From Rhodoferax koreense (GTDB taxonomy: Bacteria; Pseudomonadota; Gammaproteobacteria; Burkholderiales; Burkholderiaceae_C), in contig NZ_CP019236.1 of the NCBI RefSeq assembly GCF_001955695.1, positions 3,472,001 to 3,536,000 on the forward strand: a stretch of DNA of 64,000 nucleotides, given 5' to 3'. Position numbers and translations under genes: made by a program. Positions 56,048-63,066 of this stretch are shown here, piece after piece (position 1 is the first letter of the stretch; each line of letters starts with the position of its first letter). The notes under the pieces were generated by a model. The model worked only from the letters and a program-made list of their open reading frames with translations, was not told the DNA's origin and ran no database searches.

Positions 56048-57352
56048 TCAGCCGACCAGCATCTGCATGCTGTTCTCATAGTCCTCGGTCAACTGCTCGA
56101 AGACATCGAGCACACCTTCGCTCGCTGCAGCGAGCTGTCCGATCGCCGCGCCGCCACCCTGGAGGCCGTCGGTCGCCACCACCATGTGCCGCCAGTGCGA
56201 AGCACCGGTTTCCAGCGAGGCGCGGATGCCGGTGGAGGTGAGCGGGATGCCGTTCAAGAAGCTCAATGCCTGTTCGAAGGCCGTGCGCGCCTCCAGCAGG
56301 CCGGCCTGGTTGCGCGCGGCCACGCCGCCGCCGGCACCGACCGCACCCATGGCGCCGAGCAGCGCGTACTTGGCGTAGCGTTGCGACCACATGCGCTGGC
56401 GCGCCACCACGTTGAGCACGTGCAAGGGCGGCGCGGCACCGGCGTGTTCGAGGTCGTTGGTCAGGCGCTCGGCGTCGTCGAGCAGGCGCTCGGCCAGGCT
56501 GTCCACGCGCATCACCTGGCGCGCATCGATGCCGCCTTGCGGATCGAGCGCGGCCTTGAGCTCGCCCCAGCCCCGCACCACCTGACCCAGCAGGTCGCCG
56601 AAGGTGGGTTTGGAAAGGGTCTTGCCCAGACCGGCGATGTTGGCCTCGATGCGTTGCACCGAATCCTGCAGCAGCGGCTGCGCCTGTTGCCCAGCGCCGG
56701 CGATCTGCAGCAACTGCAGCTTGACCAGCCGTTGCGACAGCATGCGCAACTGGCCCGCGCGGTTCACCGCATCGGCGAAACGCGCGGAGTGGATGATCTG
56801 CTGCGAGACCTGGCCGAGCCGCTGGTTGGTGTGCATGGACGCCGTGCGCAGGATCTGGAAGGCGTCGTCGTCCGACACCTGGCGCGCATGCATCAGGATG
56901 CCCTTGGCGCGGTCCACCATCTTGCGTTCCTCGAAGCGGTTGGCCAGGTCGGCGAGTTGCGTCTGCAGCGCGCGCTCGCGCTTGAAGCGTGCCTGCGCGA
57001 TGTGGATCAGCGGCCGCAGCCGGTGCGCGCCATAGCCGTTGACCACGTAGGCATGGATGCCGGACTCGGCGGCGCGCGCGATGTGCTCCACCCCCGCGTC
57101 GTTGGTGAACACGATCACCGGGCACGGCGCGGTGTCGGCGATGGCCTGCGTGGTCCTGAACAGCAGGTCGCTGGGCAGCGGATCCAGGCAGATCACCACA
57201 TCTGGTGCATGGCGCACCACTTCCTGCACCAATTTGCTGCGATCGATGCTGGCGCCGAGCACCTGGATGCCCGCGGCCTCCAGGTCGGCCACCAGGGGAT
57301 GCGGTCCTTTCGTGGCCTCCAGGCCGTGCAGGTCGACAAGGGCAGAAATCAT
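56048..57352 (-). CDS. Nitrate-responsive ANTAR regulator with P-box sensor region
   Basis: 434 aa soluble protein. Residues ~1-125 form a receiver-like domain with an Asp57 but Asn where the conserved Lys should be (AYVVNGYG). An ANTAR RNA-binding domain spans ~128-190 (LANRFEERKMVDRAKGILM, QRLGQVSQQII). Residues ~190-430 are a helical NarX/PilJ-type region with a nitrate P-box-like segment ADAVNRAGQLRMLSQRL (193-209) and a weaker copy VARQRMWSQRYAKY (316-329). It diverges from narK. By analogy with Klebsiella NasR (NIT-ANTAR) it likely binds nitrate and remodels the nas leader RNA. The domain order is different. Confidence 0.87.
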   Translation of the reverse strand: MISALVDLHGLEATKGPHPLVADLEAAGIQVLGASIDRSKLVQEVVRHAPDVVICLDPLPSDLLFRTTQAIADTAPCPVIVFTNDAGVEHIARAAESGIHAYVVNGYGAHRLRPLIHIAQARFKRERALQTQLADLANRFEERKMVDRAKGILMHARQVSDDDAFQILRTASMHTNQRLGQVSQQIIHSARFADAVNRAGQLRMLSQRLVKLQLLQIAGAGQQAQPLLQDSVQRIEANIAGLGKTLSKPTFGDLLGQVVRGWGELKAALDPQGGIDARQVMRVDSLAERLLDDAERLTNDLEHAGAAPPLHVLNVVARQRMWSQRYAKYALLGAMGAVGAGGGVAARNQAGLLEARTAFEQALSFLNGIPLTSTGIRASLETGASHWRHMVVATDGLQGGGAAIGQLAAASEGVLDVFEQLTEDYENSMQMLVG

Positions 57353-57457
57353 GGGGGAAATTCGTGGCTTTCAGAGGGAAAAGGACATTCGACTAGAGGC
57401 TGTACGCAAGTCGCGCACCATCTTTGCGGCCGTGCTGGCGAGGCAGTGGCAATGATA

Positions 57458-57473
57458 TGGCATGGCTTTTGCT
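57458..57473 (+). promoter_or_regulatory. Candidate sigma-54 promoter of the narK-nasA operon
   Basis: TGGCATGGCTTTTGCT has GG at 57459-57460 and GC at 57471-57472, exactly GG-N10-GC, with the preferred TTGC at -12. The start point would be about 57484. A possible NtrC half-site (GCACCA at 57415-57420) lies upstream. Confidence 0.65.
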
Positions 57474-57483
57474 GAGCTTTCCC

Positions 57484-57597
57484 TGAACGCGACGCAGCGT
57501 TCGGTCTTTGCCCCAGCACCGCGGGCCAGCGCACAACGAAGTGCGCGAATGGTGTGCCTCACCCTCCGGCTCGAACGCAGCCGGCCCCGGAGTCGCC
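57484..57597 (+). ncRNA. Predicted ANTAR-responsive leader of the narK operon
   Basis: From the predicted start point to the narK ATG, ~114 nt. Hairpin 1: stem 57485-57490/57497-57502 with hexaloop GACGCA. Hairpin 2: stem 57529-57534/57541-57546 with hexaloop AACGAA, which has the A1 and G4 typical of ANTAR targets. A third structure pairs CTCCGG (57564-57569) with CCGGAG (57587-57592), or CCGGCT (57566-57571) with AGCCGG (57579-57584). The first form buries the narK Shine-Dalgarno. No T-run follows it, so a classic terminator is not evident. Confidence 0.55.
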
Positions 57598-58992
57598 ATG
57601 TTGTTTTCCTCCCCCACCGTCAATGCCACCGGCCCGAAGGCCAACCGCATCGACCTGTTCTCGTTTTCCACGCCGCAGATGCGGGCCTTTCACGTCACCT
57701 GGCTGGCCTTCTTCGTGTGCTTCTTCGCGTGGTTCGCGGCGGCACCGCTCATGCCGCTGATCCGCGCCGAATTTGGCCTCACCAAGGACCAGATCGCCAA
57801 CATCAACATCGCCTCGGTGGCGGTGACGATCCTGGTGCGGCTCATCATCGGCCCGCTGTGCGACAAATACGGCCCGCGCCGCACCTACACCTGGCTGCTG
57901 CTGGTCGGCGCCCTGCCGGTGTTCGGGCTGGCGTTCGCCAAGTCATACGAAGTGTTCCTGTTCTTCCGCCTGTGCATCGGCGCGATCGGCGCTTCCTTCG
58001 TCATCACGCAGTACCACACGAGCGTGATGTTCGCACCGAACGTGGTCGGCACGGCCAACGCCACCGTGGGCGGCTGGGGCAATGCCGGCGGCGGCGCCGC
58101 GCAGAGCCTGATGCCGCTGGTGGTGGCGGCGGTGCTGAGCCTCGGCGTGGAGCAGGCCTTTGGCTGGCGCGTGGCGATGTTCGTGCCCGGCGTGGCGATG
58201 GTGGTGATGGCCTTCGTCTATGCGCGCTACACGCAGGACACGCCGCAGGGCGACATCGTCGACCTGCGCGCCAGGGGCATCCAGATCGAAGGCGGCAAGA
58301 AGGGTGGCATGGCCATCTTCCTGCAGGCCTGCCGCAACTACCGCGTGTGGATGCTGGCCGCCACCTACGGCGCCTGCTTCGGCGTGGAGATCTTCATCCA
58401 CAACATCGCGGCCAGCTACTACGTGGACCGCTTCGGCCTGTCGATCGCCAACGCCGGCTTCGCCGCCGGCATCTTCGGCGCGCTGGCGCTGTTCGCCCGT
58501 GCGCTCGGCGGCATCGCCAGCGACCGCATCGCCGCGCGCCGCGGCCTGGACGGCCGAACGCTGCTGCTGTTCGGCCTGATGCTCGGCGAAGGCATCGGCC
58601 TGGTGCTGTTCAGCAAGGCCGACAGCGTGGCGCTGGCGATCGGCGCGATGGCGCTGTTCGGCCTGTTCACGCACATGGCCTGCGGCGCCACCTATGCGGT
58701 CATGCCCTTCGTCGACCGCAAGGCCCTGGGCGGCGTGGCCGGGCTGATCGGCGCCGGCGGCAACATCGGCGCGGTGGCCGCGGGCTTCCTGAACAAGGCG
58801 ACCGACACGCCGCAACAAACCCTCTTGATCCTCGGCCTGATCGTGGCCGGCACTTCTTTGTGCGCGATCTCCGTGAGATTCTCTGCACAGCACAAATCCG
58901 CCGAGCAGAAGCTGCTGGACGCGGCGCTGGCCATGCGCCGCACGGAAACCGACCTGGCCCCGGCCCCCCGCGCCACGACTGGCCTGGCCTGA
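57598..58992 (+). CDS. narK: Nitrate/nitrite MFS transporter
   Basis: 464 aa, about 12 transmembrane segments. The start is the ATG at 57598 with GGAG 6 nt upstream; the open frame reaches 57508 but overlaps the leader hairpins. RIDLFSFSTPQMRAFHVTWLAFFVCFFAWFA (read as two blocks) is the usual NarK/NasA N-terminus. The nitrate signatures GWGNAGGGAAQSLMP and GLIGAGGNIGAVAAGFL are present. It takes up nitrate for the assimilatory reductase encoded downstream. Confidence 0.95.
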   Translation: MLFSSPTVNATGPKANRIDLFSFSTPQMRAFHVTWLAFFVCFFAWFAAAPLMPLIRAEFGLTKDQIANINIASVAVTILVRLIIGPLCDKYGPRRTYTWLLLVGALPVFGLAFAKSYEVFLFFRLCIGAIGASFVITQYHTSVMFAPNVVGTANATVGGWGNAGGGAAQSLMPLVVAAVLSLGVEQAFGWRVAMFVPGVAMVVMAFVYARYTQDTPQGDIVDLRARGIQIEGGKKGGMAIFLQACRNYRVWMLAATYGACFGVEIFIHNIAASYYVDRFGLSIANAGFAAGIFGALALFARALGGIASDRIAARRGLDGRTLLLFGLMLGEGIGLVLFSKADSVALAIGAMALFGLFTHMACGATYAVMPFVDRKALGGVAGLIGAGGNIGAVAAGFLNKATDTPQQTLLILGLIVAGTSLCAISVRFSAQHKSAEQKLLDAALAMRRTETDLAPAPRATTGLA

Positions 58993-59029
58993 CACCGCAT
59001 CGCCGCCCGGCACGCCCTGGAGCTACCCC

Positions 59030-60277
59030 ATGAAAAAATCGAAACTGGTGATGATCGGCAATGGCATGGCCGGTGTGCGCACCCTCGAAGAGCTGCTGAA
59101 GATCGCCCCCGAGCTCTACGACATCACCGTCTTCGGCGCCGAGCCACACCCCAACTACAACCGCATCATGCTGTCGCCGGTGCTGGCCGGCGAGCAGACG
59201 CTGGACGAGATCGTGCTGAATTCATGGGCCTGGTACGCCGAGCACCAGATCACGCTGCATGCGGGCAAGAAGGTCGTCGAAGTCGACCGCGTGAACCGCA
59301 TCGTGCGCGCCGAGGACGGCACCGAAGCCGAATACGACCGCCTGCTGATGTGCACCGGCTCCAACGCCTTCATGCTGCCGGTACCGGGCAACCACCTCCG
59401 GGGCGTGATCGCCTACCGCGACATCGCCGACACCAACGAGATGATCGACACGGCCACCCGGTACAAGAACGCCGTGGTCATCGGCGGTGGACTGCTGGGC
59501 CTGGAGGCCGCCAACGGCCTGGCCCTGCGCGGCATGAAGGTGTCGGTGGTGCACAAGAACGATTGGCTCATGGAACGTCAGCTCGATGATGTCGCGGGCA
59601 GGCTGCTGCAACAGTCGCTGGAAGCGCGTGGGCTCCGCTTCCTGCTGGGCGCGCAGACCAAGGAACTCGTGGGCGGCCCGGAAGGCCGCGTCACGGCGAT
59701 CCGCTTCGAGGACGGCCGCGAGATCCCGGCCGACCTGGTGGTGATGGCCGTGGGCATCCGCCCCAACACCGAACTGGCCGAGAAGATGCGGCTGCACGTC
59801 GACCGCGGTATCGTGGTCAACGACACCATGCAGACCGTGACCGACGCGCGCATCTACTCGGTGGGCGAATGCGCCGCGCACCGCGGCATCGCCTATGGCC
59901 TGGTGGCGCCGCTGTTCGAGCAGGCCAAGGTGGCGGCCAACCATCTCGCGCAATCCGGCATCGGCCGCTACGTCGGGTCGCAGACCTCCACCAAGCTCAA
60001 GGTCACCGGCATCGACCTGTTCAGCGCCGGCCAGTTCCAGGGTGGCGACGGCACGGAGGAAATCGTGATGAGCGACCCGTTCGGCGGCGTCTATAAGAAG
60101 CTGGTGCTGCGCGGCGACAAGCTGGTCGGCGCCTGCCTGTATGGCGACACGGTGGACGGCAGCTTCTACTTCAAGCTGCTGCGCGAAGGCCGCAACGTGG
60201 CCGACATCCGCGACAAGCTGATGTTCGGCGAGAACCATGTCGATGAACCGGAAGCGAACCAAGGATCCGAGGCGTGA
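59030..60277 (+). CDS. NirB-like FAD/NAD(P)H oxidoreductase, short form
   Basis: 415 aa flavoprotein similar to the N-terminal half of assimilatory nitrite reductase NirB: KLVMIGNGMAGVRTLEELL (FAD site), EPHPNYNRIMLSPVLAG, VVIGGGLLGLEAANGLALRG (NAD site) and YSVGECAAHRG. The BFD and siroheme-[4Fe-4S] halves of NirB are missing, and the gene ends naturally (no frameshift). It overlaps nasA by 4 nt. It is most likely the electron donor that feeds the C-terminal [2Fe-2S] domain of NasA. Direct nitrite reduction is excluded by the missing siroheme domain. Confidence 0.88.
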   Translation: MKKSKLVMIGNGMAGVRTLEELLKIAPELYDITVFGAEPHPNYNRIMLSPVLAGEQTLDEIVLNSWAWYAEHQITLHAGKKVVEVDRVNRIVRAEDGTEAEYDRLLMCTGSNAFMLPVPGNHLRGVIAYRDIADTNEMIDTATRYKNAVVIGGGLLGLEAANGLALRGMKVSVVHKNDWLMERQLDDVAGRLLQQSLEARGLRFLLGAQTKELVGGPEGRVTAIRFEDGREIPADLVVMAVGIRPNTELAEKMRLHVDRGIVVNDTMQTVTDARIYSVGECAAHRGIAYGLVAPLFEQAKVAANHLAQSGIGRYVGSQTSTKLKVTGIDLFSAGQFQGGDGTEEIVMSDPFGGVYKKLVLRGDKLVGACLYGDTVDGSFYFKLLREGRNVADIRDKLMFGENHVDEPEANQGSEA

Positions 60278-63066
60278 CGGAAACCAGATCCACCTGTCCC
60301 TACTGTGGCGTTGGCTGCGGCGTGGTCATCGAATCCACGGGTGACCAGATCACCGGCATGCGCGGCGACCCGGACCATCCGGCGAACTTCGGCCGGCTGT
60401 GTACCAAGGGGTCCACCCTGCACCTCACGGCAACGGCCGCGATCACACGCCAGACGCGGCTGCTGCAGCCGATGCAGCGCCTGCAACGCGGCCAGCCGCC
60501 GCAACCCGTGGCCTGGGACACGGCGCTGGACCTGGCCGCCGGCAAGTTCGCCCAGGTGGTGCGCGACCACGGCCCGGACGCCGTGGCCTTCTACATTTCG
60601 GGGCAGTTGCTCACCGAGGACTACTACGTCTTCAACAAACTCGCCAAGGGCCTGATCGGCACCAACAATGTCGACACCAATTCGCGGCTGTGCATGAGCA
60701 GCGCGGTGGCGGGCTACAAACGCACGCTGGGGGCGGACGCGCCGCCCGCGTGTTACGACGACCTGAACCACGCGCAATGCCTGTTCATCGCCGGCAGCAA
60801 CACGGCGTGGGCGCACCCGATCCTGTTTCGCCGCATCGAGGACGCGCGCGCGGCCAATCCGCGCATGAAGGTCATCGTGGTCGACCCGCGCCGCACCGAT
60901 ACCGCTGGGACCGCCGATCTGCACCTGGCCATCCAGCCCGGCACCGACGTGATGCTGTTCAACGGCATGCTGCACATCATGCTGCTGGAGGGCTGGACGC
61001 AGCGCCAGTACATCCATGAACACACGAACGGTTTCGACGAACTCAAGGCCACGCTGCGCGACTGCACGCCGGACCGCGTGGCCGAGGTCTGCGGCATCGG
61101 CCGGGAGGAGCTCTTCACCGCGGCACGGTGGTTCGCCAACTCGGGTGCCACACTGAGCCTGTACTGCCAGGGCCTGAACCAGTCGAGCGCCGGCACCGAC
61201 AAGAACGCCGCGCTGATCAACCTGCACCTGGCCACGGCGCAGATCGGCCAGCCGGGCATGGGCCCGTTTTCGCTCACCGGCCAGCCCAATGCCATGGGCG
61301 GACGCGAGGTCGGCGGCATGGCCAACCTGCTCAGCGGCCACCGCGACCTGGCCAATGCCGCGCACCGCGCCGAAGTGGCGGCGTTGTGGGGTGTGGCCGA
61401 TGTGCCGTCCAAGCCCGGCAAGACCGCGGTGGACATGTTCCAGGCCGCGGCCGACGGCGAGATCAAGGCGCTGTGGATCGCCTGCACCAACCCCGCGCAG
61501 AGCCTGCCCGACCAGGCGCTGGTGCGCCGCGCGCTCGAACGCGCCGAGCTGGTGATCGTGCAGGAGGCCTTCTCCACCACGGCCACCTGCGACTACGCCG
61601 ACCTGCTGCTGCCCGCCACGACCTGGGGCGAGAAGATCGGCACCGTGACCAATTCCGAGCGCCGCATCAGCCGTGTGCGCCCCGCCGTCGCCGCGCCGGG
61701 CGAAACGCGCCACGATTGGTCGATCGCCGTGGACTTCGCACGTCGCCTCGAAGCCCTGATGCCCGCGCGTGGCGCGGCCGCCAGCCTGTTCCCCTATCCC
61801 GACGCCGAATCCATCTGGAACGAGCACCGCGAGTCCACCCGCGGCCGCGACCTCGACATCACCGGCCTGAGCTACGCCATGCTGGATGAAAAGGGGCCGC
61901 AGCAGTGGCCGCTGCGCGAAGGCGAGGCGACTGGCCAGGCCCGGCTCTACGCGGACGGCGTATTCCCCACGGCCGACGGCCGCGCGCGTTTCGCCGACAC
62001 ACCCTACCGAGGCGTGGCCGAGCCGCGCGACGCGCGTTATCCCTTCGCGCTGACCACCGGCCGGCTGCGCGACCACTGGCACGGCATGAGCCGCACCGGC
62101 ACCCTGGGCCGGCTGTTCGGCCACGTGGCCGAGCCGGCCGTGCAGCTGCATGCCCAGGCGATGGCCCGGCTCCAGCTGAAGGACGGGGACCTGGTGCACC
62201 TGACCTCGCGCCGCGGCTCCATCATGCTGCCAGCGCAGACGTCAACCGAGGTCGCGCCGACGCAGGCCTTCGTCGCCATGCACTGGGGAGAGGAATACCT
62301 GAGCGGCGTGAGCACCAGCGGTAAACGGCTCGGCGGCATCAACGCCGTCACCAACCCGGCGTATTGCCCGGTCTCCAAGCAGCCCGAACTCAAGCACACG
62401 GCGGTGAAGATCCTGAAGGCCGAACTGCCCTGGGCCCTGCTCGGCGTGGCCTGGCTGCCCGAAGACGATGCCTTGGCCGCGCGCGAGCAGTTGCGCGAGC
62501 TGATGGCGCTGTTTCCGTTCGCCACCTGCGTGCCTTTCGGCCGCGAGCGCACCGGCCTGCTGTTCCGCGCGGCGGGATACGAGGCCGCGCCCGACGCGGT
62601 GGTGGCGCGCATCGAAACCCTGCTCGGCCTGAGCGGCCCCGAAGTCCTGCGTTATGCCGACCGCAGGAAGGGCCAGCGCCGCGCCGTGCGGCTGCTGCGC
62701 ACAGCCGAGCGCGCCGAAGTCGCAGGCTTCGTGCTCGCCGGCGACATCAGTGCGGAAGGCTGGATCAAGACGCTGCTGCAGGACCAGTTGCCGGCCCAGG
62801 CCTACGGCCGGCTGCTGCTGGTGCCGGGCGCGAAGGCGCCGGTGGCGTTGCAGGCGCGCGGCAAGCAGGTCTGCACCTGCTTCAACGTGACCGACATGGC
62901 CATCCAGGCACAAATCGCGTCGCAGTCGAACACGGTCGTCGACACAGAAGCGAAGTGCTTGGCGACGCTGCAGGCCGCGCTCCAATGCGGCACCAACTGC
63001 GGCTCCTGCCTGCCGGAGGTGCGCCGGCTGGTGCGCATGGCCATGCCCGCAAGGCAGCCGGCCTGA
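60274..63066 (+). CDS. nasA: Assimilatory nitrate reductase catalytic subunit with C-terminal BFD domain
   Basis: 930 aa molybdopterin enzyme that reduces nitrate to nitrite in the cytoplasm. The GTG start at 60274 overlaps the previous stop. An N-terminal [4Fe-4S] site uses C8, C11, C15 and C43 (CPYCGVGC, LCTKG). The molybdenum ligand Cys is C140 in TNSRLCMSSAV. Further blocks are GQPNAMGGREVGGMANLLSG and TTGRLRDHWHGMSRTG. A BFD-type [2Fe-2S] domain closes the protein (C867, C869, C909, C912). It lacks a Tat signal, as expected for the assimilatory form. Confidence 0.97.
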   Translation: MTETRSTCPYCGVGCGVVIESTGDQITGMRGDPDHPANFGRLCTKGSTLHLTATAAITRQTRLLQPMQRLQRGQPPQPVAWDTALDLAAGKFAQVVRDHGPDAVAFYISGQLLTEDYYVFNKLAKGLIGTNNVDTNSRLCMSSAVAGYKRTLGADAPPACYDDLNHAQCLFIAGSNTAWAHPILFRRIEDARAANPRMKVIVVDPRRTDTAGTADLHLAIQPGTDVMLFNGMLHIMLLEGWTQRQYIHEHTNGFDELKATLRDCTPDRVAEVCGIGREELFTAARWFANSGATLSLYCQGLNQSSAGTDKNAALINLHLATAQIGQPGMGPFSLTGQPNAMGGREVGGMANLLSGHRDLANAAHRAEVAALWGVADVPSKPGKTAVDMFQAAADGEIKALWIACTNPAQSLPDQALVRRALERAELVIVQEAFSTTATCDYADLLLPATTWGEKIGTVTNSERRISRVRPAVAAPGETRHDWSIAVDFARRLEALMPARGAAASLFPYPDAESIWNEHRESTRGRDLDITGLSYAMLDEKGPQQWPLREGEATGQARLYADGVFPTADGRARFADTPYRGVAEPRDARYPFALTTGRLRDHWHGMSRTGTLGRLFGHVAEPAVQLHAQAMARLQLKDGDLVHLTSRRGSIMLPAQTSTEVAPTQAFVAMHWGEEYLSGVSTSGKRLGGINAVTNPAYCPVSKQPELKHTAVKILKAELPWALLGVAWLPEDDALAAREQLRELMALFPFATCVPFGRERTGLLFRAAGYEAAPDAVVARIETLLGLSGPEVLRYADRRKGQRRAVRLLRTAERAEVAGFVLAGDISAEGWIKTLLQDQLPAQAYGRLLLVPGAKAPVALQARGKQVCTCFNVTDMAIQAQIASQSNTVVDTEAKCLATLQAALQCGTNCGSCLPEVRRLVRMAMPARQPA

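Follow-up and report, generated by a model that had tools for sequence, protein, structure and literature searches.

A conserved two-hairpin leader resembling an ANTAR target, with a possible ribosome-site mask, precedes narK in Rhodoferax koreense

ANTAR is an RNA-binding domain, and the nasF operon of Klebsiella is transcribed from a sigma-54 promoter. Here we describe the leader of narK in Rhodoferax koreense, a promoter and two hairpins (P1 and P2) facing a divergent regulator gene, within 64,000 nt of contig NZ_CP019236.1 (forward strand, positions 3,472,001 to 3,536,000; hereafter the window, whose numbering is used throughout). The closest described counterpart is nasF/NasR of Klebsiella oxytoca, which in the sections of PMC7496416 cited here combines an assimilatory nitrate operon, two hexaloop hairpins and a nitrate-responsive ANTAR protein, a make-up the narK locus appears to share. 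The cited sections on systematic evolution of ligands by exponential enrichment (SELEX) with NasR (PMC7496416) and on EutV (PMC3369931) give a loop rule of A at position 1 and G at position 4 (A1/G4), and in the SELEX a C:G pair closes the loops. Enterococcus eut leaders, read by the receiver-ANTAR (REC-ANTAR) protein EutV, have linkers of 5–12 nt, and 14 nt drastically cut induction (PMC3369931, in part); a 20-nt linker extension abolished antitermination (PMC8934654, in part). For actinobacterial ANTAR-target RNAs a translational output was proposed, about 37% overlapping a ribosome-binding site or start (PMC8164766, in part). In the curated set, those targets have linkers of 2–25 nt.

The sigma-54 (-24/-12) promoter TGGCATGGCTTTTGCT (57458..57473, + strand) was read directly from the sequence. 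Its GG (57459-57460) and GC (57471-57472) are separated by 10 nt in a TGGCAY/TTGC context, and its TGGC and TGC are unchanged in 51/51 aligned leaders. Transcription presumably starts near 57484, a position predicted from the usual -24/-12 spacing, so that the 5' arm of P1 would be the first few nucleotides of the transcript. P1 (57485..57502, +) is GAACGC-GACGCA-GCGTTC with loop GACGCA, and P2 (57529..57546, +) is GCGCAC-AACGAA-GTGCGC with loop AACGAA (A1, G4). Promoter spacing, hairpins and loops are as the original prediction had read them. A 26-nt linker (57503..57528, +) lies between P1 and P2 and forms a third helix, PL, in most relatives.

The layout stands out from chance expectation. 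TGGCAYN5TTGCW matches once in the window against 0.22 expected from dinucleotide shuffles, and because 19/100 shuffles hold at least one match the promoter alone is weak evidence. A1/G4 hexaloop hairpins of at least 6 bp are common as well in this GC-rich DNA (6 on + and 17 on -; Markov copies average 13.65). The complete layout (TGGC-N8-YGC, a hairpin loop 30–38 nt on, a second loop 38–51 nt further, both stems at least 6 bp, both loops with a purine at position 1 and G4, R1/G4) occurs a single time over both strands of the window and never in 20 Markov copies of 64 kb. A covariance model of 51 rows, the window's own sequence among them, scored the narK site at 85.1 bits in the whole 5.9-Mb genome and the runner-up at 17.1 bits.

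The P1/P2 leader is real and conserved, and its covariation indicates function. A structure-free MAFFT alignment was made of 51 distinct leaders; they come from the 30 first loci, one more from the regulator search and 22 from named contigs, mainly Rhodoferax, Polaromonas and Hydrogenophaga (L003–L033 and L063–L084, 53 loci minus the identical L067 and L074). All 30 loci first taken carry TGGC-N8-TGC upstream of the regulator, and the P1 loop follows the T of TGG at 33 nt in 34/51 leaders and at 32–35 nt in 45/51. Standard pairs fill 97.7% of P1 cells, with two-sided changes in 5/6 pairs, and 92.5% and 94.1% of the cells in the two parts of P2. Over the 17 pairs given, 80 two-sided changes were counted against 29.5 (standard deviation 4.2) in shuffles, none of 500 shuffles reaching 80, with the limit that column shuffles and arm swaps ignore the relatedness of the leaders. 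The two stems thus do not drift freely among relatives. Shifting the pairing partners by one to three columns drops paired cells to 30–49%. In the window's own leader, pair probability is 0.94–0.96 for P1 and 0.99–1.0 for P2.

By its sequence the leader resembles an ANTAR target in every tested feature but the strict A1 rule for P1, which supports the earlier proposal of a promoter followed directly by an ANTAR-target-like RNA. It has two short-stemmed hairpins with hexanucleotide loops, and both loops are C-G closed, as in the SELEX. Across the 51 leaders the P1 closing pair is U-G in 33, C-G in 18 and never C-A; for P2 it is C-G in 41, U-G in 8 and other in 2. G4 is present in 51/51 P1 loops and 50/51 P2 loops (both in 50/51). 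At position 1, 29 leaders have A and 22 have G in the P1 loop, against 42 and 9 in the P2 loop. Strict A1/G4 in both loops occurs in 25/51 leaders and is absent from the window, where the P1 loop GACGCA has G1; the window does follow R1/G4. In L063, the closest relative (regulator 80% identical), the bases are reversed, with A in P1 and G in P2. Given these counts and this reversal, R1/G4 is taken from the sequences as the local loop rule, looser than that of the NasR SELEX and EutV, and the G1 of hairpin 1, once listed as a misfit, is no defect since 22/51 leaders have it. An Rfam scan of the window gave nothing above gathering cut-off. Identity with the Rfam narK RNA (RF03032) was rejected, at 14.6 bits versus a 43.2 cut-off in the window and nothing up to an E-value of 1 in 16 of the 30 loci then aligned.

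The divergent gene (56048..57352, - strand) encodes, by domain search and alignment, a degenerate receiver, an ANTAR domain (135–187) and a tandem PilJ/NIT-like sensor (about 190–434). The ANTAR domain, already named in the original prediction, scores 64.2 bits against a cut-off of 27.3. The N-x-x-G-x-x-R-M nitrate box described for PilJ/NIT/NarX-type sensors (PMC8199190, in part) is present as N197, G200, R203 and M204 in 56/56 aligned regulators (the window, 43 of 120 listed proteins and 12 of 22 loci). The second sensor copy keeps N314 and R320 in 56/56 and G317 in 51/56, with Ala in the window. The regulator is ordered REC-ANTAR-sensor, unlike the NasR family, in which NIT is N-terminal to ANTAR. 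The regulator search found a match in 154/299 family genomes, about 56 of which extend over the C-terminal region by reading of the table. Searches of the open-licence literature turned up neither a REC-ANTAR-PilJ regulator nor an ANTAR target with a linker helix, which is weak evidence of novelty.

Just after P2, the segment 57549..57560 (+) is complementary to the narK ribosome-binding site (57589..57600, +), read from the sequence as Shine-Dalgarno (SD) GGAG 57589-57592 and ATG 57598-57600. AUGGUG 57549-57554 faces CGCCAU 57594-57599, and CUC 57558-57560 faces GAG 57590-57592. The minimum-energy fold of the own leader consists of P1, P2 and this ribosome-site helix around a nested hairpin, P3 (CCGGCU...AGCCGG, 57566..57584, +). 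The helix has a pair probability of 0.56–0.64, and a competing local GGUG/CACC hairpin reaches 0.3. We read the helix as a ribosome-site mask beside the presumed landing place of the protein. In actinobacterial targets the hairpins themselves cover the ribosome site or start, whereas the narK leader uses a separate complement.

The complement recurs in relatives. AUG-N3-CUC(C), the reverse complement of an SD plus start codon, often directly follows P2 in PL-type leaders. It is present in 21/30 leaders with a ribosome site and open reading frame (ORF) at most 100 nt after P2 and in 3/29 without (Fisher p 3e-6); L065, whose contig ends at P2, was excluded from this and from the alternative-pairing tests. 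Pairing of the zone with its own ribosome site is stronger than that of shuffled zones (n 26, Wilcoxon p 7e-5). The mean unpaired probability of the SD is 0.09 in the 11 short leaders that were parsed, the start of L068 probably being spurious, versus 0.40 in 23 control starts (p 1.3e-4). Two other readings of this zone were discarded. AUG-N3-CUCC as a conserved leader-peptide start failed by eye because neither frames nor stops keep a constant position relative to the next gene; the window's frame runs through narK (ORF 57462-59033). By eye GUGUGC, which follows P2, seemed a tempting partner for the P2 5' arm, yet own combinations pair no better than swapped ones (p 0.84). Nor was there support for P1/P2 cross pairing, or for pairing of the GUGUGC zone with the P2 3' arm, either P1 arm or the linker.

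The best explanation, held with moderate confidence, is that an ANTAR protein reads the P1/P2 leader and that the nitrate-bound regulator switches narK translation on. The narK-reductase operon would be transcribed from the sigma-54 promoter, its transcript beginning almost exactly with P1. P1 and P2 are very probably the joint target of the divergently encoded regulator, a one-component protein that may sense nitrate or nitrite through its C-terminal tandem PilJ/NIT-like region, and nitrate would trigger binding. Binding would act beside P2 and open the helix between the complement (57549-57560) and the narK start (57589-57599), and the unmasked ribosome site would let nitrate turn translation on. 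Of all the steps, the direction of the effect is the least secure; activation was preferred since the operon imports and reduces nitrate.

Several results weigh against this explanation. P2 and the ribosome-site helix are compatible with each other, and there is no sign of selection for P2 to pair with the complement instead (own versus swapped, p 0.84). The pairing test taken leader by leader is below 0.05 in only 10/26, with p 0.24 for the window. Swapping complement and ribosome site between species gave no clear weakening (p 0.058, n 26; 0.26 in nine hold-outs), a test that is not decisive; both halves are conserved, and 34/60 leaders had no parsed start. The motif pattern was composed after inspection of the sequences, and none of the tests allows for relatedness. 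Of 59 examined leaders, 29 lack a ribosome site close to P2, which precludes translation in this form as their output. Folded in full, the own leader is hardly more stable than its shuffles (z -0.95). The own ribosome-site helix (57549-57599), followed by TGTTGTTT, was itself flagged as a terminator candidate (-19.4 kcal/mol).

A translational variant is the most likely form of the switch, and its main rival is Rho-linked attenuation. Rho would then end transcription in the leader unless the ANTAR protein is bound or the leader is translated. This would fit leaders in which P1 and P2 are strongly kept even without a nearby ribosome site and P2-overlapping intrinsic terminators are rare (3/60 PL-type leaders), and the short ORFs (17–65 codons) after P2 in several relatives could couple translation to Rho. 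The window has no separate leader ORF, although its nearest relative L063 has one, and Rho attenuation is considered unlikely here. Classical antitermination of the Klebsiella nasF kind, acting on an intrinsic terminator, draws on the same promoter type and hairpins and on leaders of the same order whose P2 overlaps a terminator with a U run. A crude search for a hairpin and then a T tract, which missed L132, was run on 60 PL-type leaders (the 51 aligned and nine hold-outs); it flagged 14/60 and, in the window, the ribosome-site helix before TGTTGTTT. Flagged hairpins include P2 in only three leaders (L010, L073, L124) and not in the other 57. The crude scan found no intrinsic terminator overlapping P2 in the window, and the sole own candidate lies after P2, its T tract broken and inside narK; as it does not overlap P2, P2 cannot exclude it. 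By the terminator criterion the window leader is not a nasF-type antitermination leader, and that mechanism is improbable for it. The earlier comparison with nasF therefore stands for promoter type and hairpins and falls for the output. The narK leader further differs from nasF in that loop position 1 may be G and most relatives have a linker helix.

The reader of the leader could be another protein. The genome encodes two ANTAR proteins, the second a NasR-like NIT-ANTAR protein beside nirD, and among 16 chosen genomes for which ANTAR proteins were listed, PL-type leaders occur where the only one found is of NIT-ANTAR (G097) or NasT type (G129); in G109, also with NIT-ANTAR alone, the leader matches the model and is unparsed. 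The REC-ANTAR-PilJ gene is nevertheless divergent and adjacent, both in the window and in each of the first 30 loci examined, which makes reading by the second protein in this genome rather doubtful. That the dyads are DNA operators is suggested by their place at or just after the predicted start and by the divergent regulator gene. Pairing exceptions in P1 and P2 are mostly G-T (72) and not A-C (11), or 39 versus 11 once the P1 closing pair is excluded; by hairpin, the counts among the 51 leaders are 40 versus 5 for P1 and 32 versus 6 for P2. This excess argues that the + strand RNA is selected and against DNA operators. The loops are conserved on one strand only and ANTAR is known to bind RNA, so the operator alternative is very remote.

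PL may bear on how a long linker works. Linkers are 25–29 nt in 48/51 leaders, unlike those of EutV/eut. Folded alone, the linker beats the mean of its shuffles in 45/51 leaders (mean z -1.44), and linker ends of the same species pair at -10.1 versus -7.3 kcal/mol (standard deviation 0.33) when swapped (0/10,000 permutations). Standard pairs fill 74.4% of PL cells, with two-sided changes in 4/5 pairs, the columns being poorly aligned there. Eight of 11 hold-out leaders outside the idea-forming set were parsed (L130, L147 and L158 were not; L134 was not included) and gave a mean z of -2.16 (0/10,000 permutations). L147 and L158, both from genome G510 of another family, are two model matches about 14 kb apart with linkers that look helical by eye and no P2 parsed by the script. 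Counting against a linker helix, the window's own (GGUCU 57503-57507 with GGGCC 57523-57527) is weak (z -0.16 alone, probability 0.03 in the full leader), and the linker is unstructured in L078, L079 and L084, with small local structure in L076.

The covariance model found the leader in 56/299 family genomes. Lists compared by hand give 42 with the PilJ-type regulator and 14 without; several of the 14 are weak matches, and L133 and L136 resemble coding DNA. It matched in 15/399 genomes drawn from the order. The 25 loci of distant regulators (L034–L058) were not in the alignment; their scan gave no motif in 11, spurious sites only in L037, L040 and L055, and some or all of the motif in 11, L034 having both hairpins and most having P1 without P2. 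In L049–L054, with more distant PilJ-type regulators, a sigma-54 site precedes one AACG-/AATG-type hairpin at +1 without a clear P2, and about 100 nt on some have, by eye, a C[CT]GGT-loop hairpin that resembles a terminator.

Model matches in other Burkholderiales families and in two same-family genomes include terminator-type leaders, whose terminator, followed by a T run, takes its 5' arm from the loop and 3' arm of P2 (L131 by script; L132, L146, L148–L151, L153, L156 and L157 by eye). They share the TGGCA-type -24/-12 promoter, with the P1 loop 33–40 nt on and the P2 loop 34–46 nt further (10/12 parsed; L152 and L154 were not). Unlike the window, their P2 overlaps an intrinsic terminator and there is no covarying linker helix (mean z -0.65, arm-swap p 0.22 in the 10 parsed). 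Their linkers are 18–29 nt without a conserved helix, so a helix is not the sole way to use a long linker. A NasT-type gene lies within the 3-kb locus in 7/10 from other families, and NIT-ANTAR in L131 and L132.

We tentatively propose a Comamonadaceae-wide class of ANTAR targets without a terminator, with P1 at the sigma-54 +1 and, in most members, a linker helix keeping P1 and P2 together, in which a nitrate-bound ANTAR protein of three interchangeable sensor types (REC-ANTAR-NIT-like, NasT, NIT-ANTAR) would activate translation by unmasking the ribosome site of narK or a short leader ORF. If true, an ANTAR switch moved from antitermination towards translation within one bacterial order while promoter and hairpins were kept, a long linker may have one way to work despite the EutV length limit, and a one-component nitrate sensor carries the NasR domain order reversed. 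The overall interpretation in the original prediction is partly upheld; it lacked the linker helix of the relatives and the ribosome-site complement.

Its further claim of nitrogen-limitation control by NtrC found little support. rpoN and ntrC are both present in the genome. NtrC-like sites between regulator and promoter, scored against a consensus, show no clear enrichment (mean best 7.67/12 in 51 leaders versus 7.27 in shuffles); the window's best is 8/12 (p about 0.18), and p is at most 0.02 in 5/51 leaders (L022, L026, L031, L071, L077). By eye, own-clade relatives share a conserved GCAAGTCGCGCACCA-like block, along with an AATCATA/AATGATA stretch, directly upstream of the -24 box (57390-57457), perhaps the promoter of the divergent regulator.

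Downstream (all +), 57598..58992 encodes a NarK-type nitrate/nitrite major facilitator superfamily transporter (TIGR00886, 300 bits, just below the 311.7 cut-off). It is followed by an FAD/NAD(P)H reductase resembling the NirB N-terminal part (59030..60277; TIGR02374, 454 bits, below cut-off) and a molybdopterin oxidoreductase with a C-terminal BFD-like [2Fe-2S] domain (60274..63066; NCBIfam matches shown all below cut-off), probably the assimilatory nitrate reductase. Elsewhere in this genome (L059, C1:4558001-4572000), nirB-nirD is followed by the NasR-like NIT-ANTAR gene; upstream of nirB there is no convincing hexaloop pair (stems of 4–5 bp only) and one sigma-54-like site, CGGCATGAAGCTTGC. 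In L083 (Polaromonas sp. P2-4) the regulator range translates with 5 stops and the narK-like ORF of L013 has just 111 codons, each possibly a broken gene or assembly error.

Short ORFs with their own ribosome site lie between P2 and the first operon gene in L006, L012, L022, L023, L029, L030, L033, L063, L064, L066, L083, L122 and L124–L128; their sequences look unrelated by eye. In 11/27 long leaders (L004, L006, L010, L011, L013, L064, L066, L069, L070, L072, L083) a second sigma-54-like site follows the ANTAR leader, 41–70 nt ahead of the NirB-like gene, and looks like a further promoter that bypasses the switch.
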